In this document: positions 58,498 through 63,884 of the stretch, piece by piece
How the letters are laid out: the number at the start of each line of letters is the position of its first letter
Position numbering within the stretch: position 1 is the first letter of the stretch
DNA from: Pseudomonadota bacterium
GTDB lineage: Bacteria > Pseudomonadota > Gammaproteobacteria > Burkholderiales > Rhodocyclaceae
Direction of reading: 5' to 3'
NCBI GenBank assembly: GCA_018241725.1
Contig: JAFEDI010000093.1
Coordinates: 212,836-276,835 of the forward strand
Length of the DNA: 64,000 nt
The notes under the pieces: model-generated
Database searches by the model: none
Told to the model about the DNA's origin: nothing
Seen by the model: only the letters and a program-made list of their open reading frames with translations
Position numbers and translations under genes: made by a program

Positions 58498-59664
<1,167 letters not shown>

Positions 59665-59680
59665 GGAAGCGCTCCTGAAA

Positions 59681-59724
59681 AACAAAAATCCCCTTGACTG
59701 ACGGCGTTGCCGTCTCGGGGGATT
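59681..59724 (-). terminator. Intrinsic terminator/attenuator in the metK leader
   Basis: In the minus-strand transcript AATCCCC (59724-59718) pairs with GGGGATT (59693-59687). Enclosed is a second hairpin GACGGC (59714-59709), AAC, GCCGTC (59705-59700). TTTTTGTTTTT follows (59688-59678). It ends about 15 bases before the metK ATG, a placement that makes sense only as a regulated terminator. CGCTCC (59733-59728) is also complementary to GGAGCG at the ribosome-binding site (59675-59670). Confidence 0.85.
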
Positions 59725-59739
59725 CTCGGAGCGGCGACG

Positions 59740-59822
59740 CTTTAGCAGTATTTTTGCCGGCACATCCGTAGCTGATCTACGGACCGCCACCGCCCTGCAA
59801 GTTGTCGGATTAACTCGGCGGA
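59740..59822 (-). ncRNA. Candidate SAM-II-like riboswitch aptamer in the metK leader
   Basis: On the minus strand CCGCC (59821-59817) pairs with GGCGG (59794-59790), enclosing a loop with GAGTTAA and CTTGCAG. Downstream come an A-rich strand (GGCAAAAATA) and CTGCTAAAG (59748-59740), whose CTGC (59748-59745) can pair with loop GCAG (59798-59795) to make an H-type pseudoknot. SAM-II aptamers have this arrangement with conserved CTTGCA and GCTAAA. Unlike classical SAM-II there is an extra hairpin (TCCGTAG, 59783-59777, with CTACGGA, 59771-59765). It begins at the predicted transcript start. The match was judged by eye from remembered consensus. Confidence 0.55.
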
Positions 59823-59828
59823 ATCACA

Positions 59829-59856
59829 ATTATAGCTTTGCCTTCCGGCCCGTCAA
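59829..59856 (-). promoter_or_regulatory. metK promoter
   Basis: On the minus strand TTGACG (59856-59851), a 16-base spacer and a perfect TATAAT (59834-59829). The predicted transcription start near 59822 falls exactly at the first stem of the candidate riboswitch. Confidence 0.85.
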
Positions 59857-59877
59857 TTCGGCCACCACACAGCCCCA

Positions 59878-60756
59878 ATGGCGTCACTCATTTTTTCCCT
59901 TCTGGCCCGCCTTCCCCTCGGACTCCTGCAACGTCTCGGCGGCTTCGCGGGCTGGCTGACCTACGCTGGCTCGCCCACCTACCGGCGGCGCCTGCGCGAC
60001 AATCTGACCCGAGCCCTGGGCCAGGATGAAGCGGCGCGGACCTGGCGGCGAACTGTGGGCGAGACCGGCAAGCAGGCACTCGAACTGCCGTGGCTGCTGC
60101 TGCGCCCACAGGCAGAGATCGTCACCAAGGTCGTCCGCGTCAGCGGCTGGGAACACGTGGAAGCCGCCGAGGCCAGCGGCGGCGGCATCCTGTTCATCAC
60201 ACCGCACCTGGGCTGCTTCGAGATCACTGCCCAGTATTTCTCCACCCACAAACCGATCACCGTGCTGTACCGGGCGCCGCGCAAGACGGTACTGCAACCC
60301 CTCATCAACGCCGGGCGCAGCCGCGGCAACATGCGCCTGGCGCCCGCCGACGTAGGCGGCGTACGGCGCCTGATCAAGGCCCTGCGTGCCGGCGAGGCGG
60401 TCGGCATGCTGCCGGATCAGGTACCCGGCGCCGGTGAAGGCGCCTGGCTGCCCTTCTTCGGCCGCCCGGCCTACACGATGACTCTGGCCGCCCGCCTGTC
60501 CGAGGTATCCGGCGTCAGCACGATCTTCGCGTGGGCCGAACGCCTGCCCGGCGGCGCCGGCTTCCACCTGCGTCTGCGCCCGGCCTTTGAAGCACTGACT
60601 GGCGACACGGAAACCCGCGCCGCCGCCATCAACCGCGAGATGGAAGCCCTGATCCGCGAGAACCCGTCCCAGTACCTGTGGGGTTACAACCGCTACAAGC
60701 GCCCCCGCGGCGCCCCTCCCACCCCACCTCCCACCTCCCGAGAAAACCAACAATGA
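59878..60756 (+). CDS. Lysophospholipid/lipid A acyltransferase (LpxL/HtrB family)
   Basis: Adds a secondary acyl chain to Kdo2-lipid IVA at the inner membrane. The 292-residue protein has a short N-terminal hydrophobic region (LIFSLLARLPLGLLQRLGGF), the H-x4-E active site in ITPHLGCFEI, and MLPDQVPGAGEGAWLPFFGRPAYTM, the family's substrate-binding block. The C-terminal ENPSQYLWGYNRYKRP is typical. It is divergent from metK and translationally coupled (ATGA at 60753) to the next acyltransferase. Confidence 0.92.
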   Translation: MASLIFSLLARLPLGLLQRLGGFAGWLTYAGSPTYRRRLRDNLTRALGQDEAARTWRRTVGETGKQALELPWLLLRPQAEIVTKVVRVSGWEHVEAAEASGGGILFITPHLGCFEITAQYFSTHKPITVLYRAPRKTVLQPLINAGRSRGNMRLAPADVGGVRRLIKALRAGEAVGMLPDQVPGAGEGAWLPFFGRPAYTMTLAARLSEVSGVSTIFAWAERLPGGAGFHLRLRPAFEALTGDTETRAAAINREMEALIRENPSQYLWGYNRYKRPRGAPPTPPPTSRENQQ

Positions 60757-63810: not shown

Positions 63811-63884
63811 GCGGGCGTCGTATAATGGTAATACCCTAGCTTCCCAAGCTAGAGCCGTGGGTTCGATTCCCATCGCCCGCTCCA
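63811..63884 (+). tRNA. tRNA-Gly, anticodon CCC
   Basis: A 74-base cloverleaf with encoded CCA. The acceptor GCGGGCG pairs with CGCCCGC. The anticodon stem CTAGC/GCTAG encloses TTCCCAA with anticodon CCC, reading GGG. The T-arm is GTGGG-TTCGATT-CCCAT. The discriminator base before CCA is T, normal for tRNA-Gly. Confidence 0.96.

Follow-up and report, generated by a model that had tools for sequence, protein, structure and literature searches.

The leader of metK on the minus strand of the window, by which we mean the whole 64,000-nucleotide stretch of DNA analysed here, very probably encodes a cis-acting switch of the SAM-II/SAM-V superfamily, a metK subtype that carries P3 as an additional hairpin and represses metK at high SAM. 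The RNA lies outside every Rfam family tested; by its build it is a relative of SAM-II and SAM-V, and it is most probably a SAM-off switch. Comparison of related leaders supports a predicted pseudoknot, the P3 hairpin, two alternative pairings downstream of it, the promoter and the terminator. Promoter, conserved RNA, intrinsic terminator, Shine-Dalgarno (SD) sequence and the start of metK follow one another within fewer than 200 bases (Table 1).

Table 1. Predicted elements of the metK leader, listed in the direction of transcription (positions of the window).
Feature	Position	Strand	Basis
−35 box TTGACG	59851–59856	−	promoter scan and sequence
−10 box TATAAT	59829–59834	−	promoter scan
P1 5′ strand CCGCC	59817–59821	−	covariation
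Third strand of the expected triplex, GAGUUAA	59810–59816	−	comparison with SAM-V
P2b 5′ strand CGAC (partner GUCG, 59735–59738)	59804–59807	−	covariation
Pseudoknot 5′ strand CUUGCAG (DNA CTTGCAG)	59795–59801	−	conservation and covariation
P1 3′ strand GGCGG	59790–59794	−	covariation
P3, extra hairpin between P1 and the pseudoknot 3′ strand	59759–59788	−	linker folding
A-rich strand AAAAAUA linking P3 to the pseudoknot strand	59749–59755	−	alignment
Pseudoknot 3′ strand CUGCUAAAG (DNA CTGCTAAAG)	59740–59748	−	conservation
Switch strand GCGUCGCCGCUC, common to P2b, antiterminator and anti-SD helix	59729–59740	−	folding and permutation
Anti-SD CGCUCC, perfect complement of GGAGCG (59670–59675)	59728–59733	−	folding and permutation
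GAGACGGCAACGC, antiterminator partner of the switch strand, inside the terminator	59704–59716	−	folding and permutation
Intrinsic terminator hairpin with nested inner hairpin (−17.6 kcal/mol)	59687–59724	−	folding
U tract TTTTTGTTTTT	59678–59688	−	sequence
Shine-Dalgarno AGGAGCG	59670–59676	−	sequence
metK, methionine adenosyltransferase, 388 aa	58498–59664	−	Pfam and TIGR01034

An earlier note on this DNA had proposed the TTGACG/TATAAT promoter and metK as the target gene, and both proposals hold. The two boxes are separated by a 16-nt spacer and match 11 of 12 consensus letters, with one promoter-like site observed against 0.1 expected from shuffles. The identity of metK is certain from its protein-family matches, which comprise Pfam PF00438, PF02772 and PF02773 and TIGR01034 at 621.2 bits (searched without the initial methionine). 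The transcript is expected to start at about 59821–59824, just 5′ of P1, and 76 of the 85 distinct metK leaders have a −10-like box (at least four of six letters in the matching stretch), compared with 17% of shuffles. The metK reading frame continues upstream without a stop over a large part of the leader, as far as a GTG at 59790 (59662–59790); the ATG at 59664–59662 is the likelier start codon. The leader folds more stably than most of its shuffles (z −2.62), 5 of 200 shuffles being equally good.

Alignment of 110 distinct related leaders supports an H-type pseudoknot as the predicted fold of the metK leader RNA. Over P1, P2b and the pseudoknot helix, 96.4% of cells were paired compared with 29–51% for slid partners, and changes on both sides occurred in 9 of 16 pairs (P1, 5 of 6; P2b, 2 of 3; pseudoknot, 2 of 7), a level of covariation matched by none of 500 shuffles. 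The alignment used (A3) was fitted to P1, so that the P1 counts lean towards P1; the pseudoknot was absent from its model. Within the pseudoknot, the pairs of the last two 5′-strand letters covary and the other five are invariant, and P2b is paired in 91.0% of cells over its three pairs, two of which have both-sided changes. The outermost pair of P1 is unpaired in 28 of the 110 rows, being U–U in the window, and two P2b pairs fail, in 13 and 15 rows. The earlier note had placed CTTGCAG inside a stem, had suggested that it pairs with a downstream strand and had asked for covariation among related metK leaders; the motif (59801–59795) does lie within CCGCC/GGCGG, both helices of the pseudoknot covary, and the comparison leaves the proposal unrefuted.

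With one exception, the letters expected to contact the ligand are strictly conserved. We mapped the contact positions of SAM-V, taken from the available part of PMC6061858, onto the alignment, and on this mapping of ours G59814, U59813 and U59812 correspond to SAM-V U8, U9 and U10, and U59744, A59743, A59742 and A59741 to U47, A48, A49 and A50. The rows fall into two subtypes, type A, to which the window RNA belongs, and type B, described below. Apart from the first third-strand letter, the contacts (U at the second and third places of the third strand, UUG of the 5′ strand, UAAA of the 3′ strand) are the same in every one of the 87 distinct type A and 23 type B rows. The two sulfonium-flanking uridines, the uridine paired with the adenine of SAM and the next three adenosines are accordingly invariant. 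In longer blocks, third-strand UU and CUUGC are found in all 87 type A rows and GCUAAAG in all 87 type A and all 23 type B rows. The first third-strand letter varies: 66 of the 87 type A rows have G, 18 have U, 2 have A and 1 has a gap, whereas 21 of the 23 type B rows have U. The window thus has G, not U, at the position of SAM-V U8, which is bonded to U47 in SAM-V (PMC6061858, available part); the sources compared do not give a first U as a defining letter of the family. At the position of SAM-V A18 the window has C, as do most of the SAM-II loci compared.

A further signature of SAM-II is a homopurine pair, G–G or A–A, predicted in the accessible portion of PMC2258182 for the region of P1 and the 5′ pseudoknot strand, and on our matching of positions to that paper the window RNA carries this pair of the SAM-II superfamily. 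Columns 13 and 23 of the alignment are A–A in 82 and G–G in 24 rows, hence homopurine in 106 of 110, and have the third-highest mutual information, behind two Watson–Crick pairs, a correlation that may reflect one subtype split. Types A and B were separated by columns 13, 22 and 23, which is circular for those columns taken singly and not for the joint 13/23 count. SAM-II loci read G–G at these positions in 15 of 18 cases, C–G in 2 and U–G in 1 (18 parsed of 20), with at least one of the non-G–G readings (L036) due to a misplaced pattern match.

The extra hairpin that the earlier note saw between the first stem and the 3′ strand is real and recurs among relatives. Of the 87 type A rows, 37 have a linker of 9 nt from P1 to the 3′ strand and 34 have one of at least 20 nt, and these longer linkers tend to form a hairpin (mean folding z −2.27, with 3 of 34 above −0.5). 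Adenosine occupies alignment columns 92, 93 and 94 in 101, 116 and 116 of 128 rows. A P3 hairpin after P1, followed by adenosines, is a trait of SAM-V and is present in the window at 59788–59749; according to the part of PMC6061858 available, the SAM-V P3 sits at the corresponding place and SAM-II is without P3.

Downstream of the pseudoknot, the two-hairpin terminator of the earlier note survives as a terminator, not as two separate hairpins: folding gives one hairpin with a nested inner one. A simple terminator scan found none against 0.6 expected, and folding was used instead; we think that the scan missed it because it permits only loops of 3–8 nt. In prediction, the switch strand has two alternative partners, the 5′ half of the terminator (antiterminator) and the SD. 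The duplex of the switch strand with GAGACGGCAACGC has −15.9 kcal/mol and the antiterminator hairpin −15.5 kcal/mol, and over 85 distinct metK leaders the antiterminator was stronger with a leader’s own partner than with permuted ones (−16.05 versus −14.35 kcal/mol; 0 of 5000 permutations). The anti-SD helix, between the other end of the switch strand and the SD region, behaved likewise in the same 85 leaders (−13.16 versus −9.70 kcal/mol; 0 of 5000). Shared ancestry inflates all of these counts and is not removed by permutation, and its effect is reduced in a run on 29 representatives, in which the tracking of both pairings held (0 of 20000 permutations). For each alternative pairing, 17 of 85 rows were no better than the cross mean, and composition shuffles were clearly beaten in only 42 and 49 of the 85 rows.

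Transcripts of the window that end before the 3′ arm of the terminator fold with the antiterminator, and longer ones with the terminator. When the pseudoknot strands are treated as occupied and P1 is imposed, the predicted fold contains both the terminator and the anti-SD helix. If the complete leader is folded without constraints, a calculation that leaves out pseudoknot energy, the minimum-energy structure keeps the terminator and melts P1, and switching must therefore be kinetic. A terminator was recognised in 34 of the 85 metK leaders, namely in 26 of the 28 retrieved because they resemble the window and in only 8 of the remaining 57, and in leaders elsewhere the same switch strand seems to act on translation. 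Covering of the SD is a trait of SAM-V, and here anti-SD complementarity tracks between species; the window has a terminator as well.

From these elements we infer that the ligand is SAM, that binding lowers expression and that the alternative pairings exclude one another in the cell. RNA polymerase would start a few bases 5′ of P1. At high SAM, the ligand would be bound in a triplex of the GUU third strand and the CUUGC/GCUAAAG pseudoknot, and the bound pseudoknot would lock P2b (CGAC/GUCG). With P2b locked, the switch strand GCGUCGCCGCUC would be unavailable to GAGACGGCAACGC and the terminator would form before metK, while the leftover CGCUCC could mask the SD. At low SAM, the switch strand would instead form the antiterminator and metK would be transcribed.

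Rfam 15 does not recognise this RNA. Its SAM-II, SAM-II long loops and SAM-V models matched nowhere in the window, even with the E threshold relaxed to 10, the aptamer alone had no match in Rfam 15, and for type A nothing above chance was found in the window or in 20 scanned loci. Short-linker copies of type A among those 20 loci were missed too, so the P3 insert is not the sole reason for the miss. At gathering score, Rfam matches nothing in the window except a tRNA gene at 63811–63881. Within 59500–60000 a single family came up at E up to 10, namely rnk_pseudo (17 bits, E 2.5), whose match overlaps the leader and was rejected as chance. In the window’s own genome, searched at E up to 1, the SAM-II model (RF00521, gathering score 36 bits) found the metX leader at 27.1 bits and one chance-level place at 16.2 bits, the metK leader being absent. 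SAM-II long loops (RF01726, gathering score 44 bits) matched nothing in the window or its genome and 1 of 40 relatives at 22.7 bits, and SAM-V (RF01826) matched nothing in the window and none of 40 relatives, the own genome included, in a search in which the positive control was also silent.

The connection to SAM-II runs through type B, a sister subtype found before metX, metZ and metH, including metX of the window’s own genome, where type B with a terminator lies directly upstream of the gene (L181:537–1777). The Rfam SAM-II model finds type B in 6 of 20 scanned loci at 28.9–40.0 bits, two of them over the cut-off. Our covariance model R1, built from 24 leaders with P1 only, finds type B copies at 21.0–52.3 bits, and R2, built from type B, finds the window RNA at 26.8 bits in its own genome, 52 of 60 relatives, and 7 of 8 Rfam SAM-II loci from other classes at 16.5–38.5 bits. 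Our guess is that the Rfam SAM-II loci used for comparison are alphaproteobacterial. Because type B is an intermediate that matches both, type A joins the SAM-II superfamily. The suggestion of a SAM-II-like variant or related class is thereby supported, by covariation, by the contact letters bar one, by the homopurine pair and by the intermediate type B. As a side observation, the Burkholderia sRNA family Bp2_287 (RF02424) matches the antisense strand of type B, below its cut-off, at three loci (L062, L063, L136), and this family may be a misoriented riboswitch.

The leader is widespread. A DNA search found it in 20 of 22 other genomes of the same genus at E 3.2e-35 or better, the two without it being 72% and 77% complete; 92 of 100 related genomes matched at E up to 1, weak matches included, and shorter conserved blocks of the leader occur in many other genomes of the family and order. 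In the order, 255 of 399 genomes had an R1 match (E up to 0.1), as did 80 of 274 in the class and 31 of 299 in the phylum (E up to 0.01), all counts that include type B copies and so are not a census of type A. Among 100 chosen loci, 64 precede metK; the others comprise 26 tandem and 1 single arrangement before a MYDC/MFDC gene, 4 before an AAA ATPase gene, 1 before metZ and 4 other. These loci are not a random sample, since L071–L100 are the 30 loci for the best R1 matches in the order, L101–L160 are 60 chosen across families from the matches listed, and L061–L070 are 10 of 14 from the DNA search. With a search pattern that required a linker of 20–50 nt, at least 115 of at least 119 stretches lay before metK, 3 reached a contig edge and 1 was unassigned; these long-linker stretches include those of Burkholderia, Paraburkholderia, Cupriavidus, Ralstonia, Achromobacter, Bordetella, Thauera, Azoarcus and Accumulibacter.

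Several other settings were observed. Type A precedes AAA ATPase genes at L085, L086, L090, L092, L313 and L317 (in tandem at L317), the assignment at L085 drawing on a RavA model match of 20.2 bits, far under the cut-off, and that of the remaining loci being by eye. At L063, as judged by eye, type A precedes a gene for an HD-like protein, behind which comes a second MetK-like protein, and the AAA ATPase and HD-like loci are possibly operons tied to SAM use. In one family of the same class (f47), type A-like RNAs with a long linker precede a short protein at L329–L334, with an MTCP start in 4 of 6. An SAH riboswitch (RF01057, 51–62 bits) lies up to about 1.4 kb downstream of the metK leader at L060, L066 and L079.

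In 26 of the 100 loci, type B and then type A, 31–145 nt apart, precede a protein of about 95–115 aa with MYDC/MFDC and a MatE transporter (among them L062, L064, L077, L078, L101–L106, L133–L136 and L144–L146). A MatE-like motif was found by pattern in all 27 MYDC/MFDC loci (26 tandem and 1 single), with Pfam MatE confirmed for one, and two of the small proteins had no match in Pfam or NCBIfam. The part of PMC9481103 available reports 44 tandem SAM-II cases and does not name this setting. There is an outside chance that the RNA before metK forms a riboswitch class of its own, whose distinct ligand preference would be signalled by the third-strand G and A–A, and that the tandem before MYDC/MFDC and MatE is a natural two-input gate on the state of the SAM cycle.

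A slim chance attaches to the reading that the same pseudoknot senses SAH, or SAM and SAH, so that metK would answer the methylation ratio and not SAM itself. SAM/SAH riboswitches precede metK in Rhodobacterales (PMC2864571 and PMC4239095, available parts), and type A departs from type B at the first third-strand letter and the homopurine pair. However, the two uridines next to the sulfonium, credited in the accessible text of PMC6061858 with exclusion of SAH, are invariant, two SAH riboswitches in the window’s own genome score above the Rfam cut-off, and the three loci with an SAH riboswitch downstream of metK (L060, L066, L079) nevertheless keep the type A leader. Slimmer still is the prospect that the two subtypes are separate classes that bind different ligands, with type A responding to some other SAM-cycle compound: the coexistence of the subtypes in one genome (before metK and metX) and in tandem leaders, each with its subtype letters, would fit this idea, but the contact letters are otherwise common to both, metK makes SAM, and the available part of PMC2258182 allows either G–G or A–A as the homopurine pair of SAM-II. 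Least credible is a conserved leader that binds no metabolite, a constitutive attenuator or protein-binding RNA, which the preference of the unconstrained fold for the terminator and the inferential footing of SAM binding would allow, but for which a strictly conserved triplex core and covarying helices in many families, mostly before metK, would be unexpected in a plain attenuator.

Set beside known systems, the SAM-off switch proposed here resembles SAM-II (RF00521, SAM_alpha) in having an H-type pseudoknot with a UU third strand, in its CUUGC and GCUAAA blocks and in its homopurine pair and pathway, and a terminator often lies downstream of SAM-II as well. It differs in that type A is unmatched by the SAM-II model, P3 is added, the first third-strand letter is G, A–A stands for G–G, and the target is metK. 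The SAM-II targets named in the literature available are metY, metX, metA, metZ and a few others; at one class-level locus (L052) a SAM-II model match of 34.1 bits, below the cut-off, precedes metK (by eye). SAM-II in beta-proteobacteria was noted in 2007. With SAM-V (RF01826) the metK RNA shares the core contacts and a P3 followed by adenosines in the corresponding place (PMC6061858, available part), although the SAM-V model has no match and SAM-V is described as translational and from marine bacteria, whereas the metK RNA has a terminator. SAM-II long loops (RF01726), by its name a lengthened SAM-II and given in the sources available for Bacteroidetes and marine samples, is without a match in the window or its genome. 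The SAM/SAH riboswitch (RF01727) is likewise an H-type pseudoknot before metK but is confined to Rhodobacterales in the portions of the literature compared, and its Rfam model has no match in the window.

The closest published relative is the metXZ element of Leyn 2014 (PMC4239095, available part), a beta-proteobacterial pseudoknot of regions 1–4 and 2–6 with a terminator behind it; it was described for metX and metZ with no named ligand, whereas the window RNA precedes metK. Compared by description only, its architecture of six conserved regions agrees with ours and type B stands before metX and metZ, so that type B is probably this element. For the metK element we found no description in the literature within reach, which left out most subscription papers and preprints, save a table footnote in the accessible part of PMC8814607, in which the metK, metX and metZ 5′ UTRs of B. 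thailandensis are suspected to be regulatory, ‘confirmed (unpublished data)’. The metK RNA is new as a variant of the SAM-II superfamily and partly foreshadowed in print.

The available part of PMC4239095 also reports that beta-proteobacterial metK is without a known methionine regulator and that a search for one was unsuccessful. If our reading is correct, a widespread aptamer missed by Rfam 15 would fill this gap and extend the SAM-II superfamily, uniting a SAM-V-like P3, a SAM-II-like core and a transcription terminator in one leader. With a covariance model of the R1 kind, annotators could find the element in many genomes. The metK leaders would then form a natural series in which one aptamer seemingly drives terminators in some lineages and SD masking in others.
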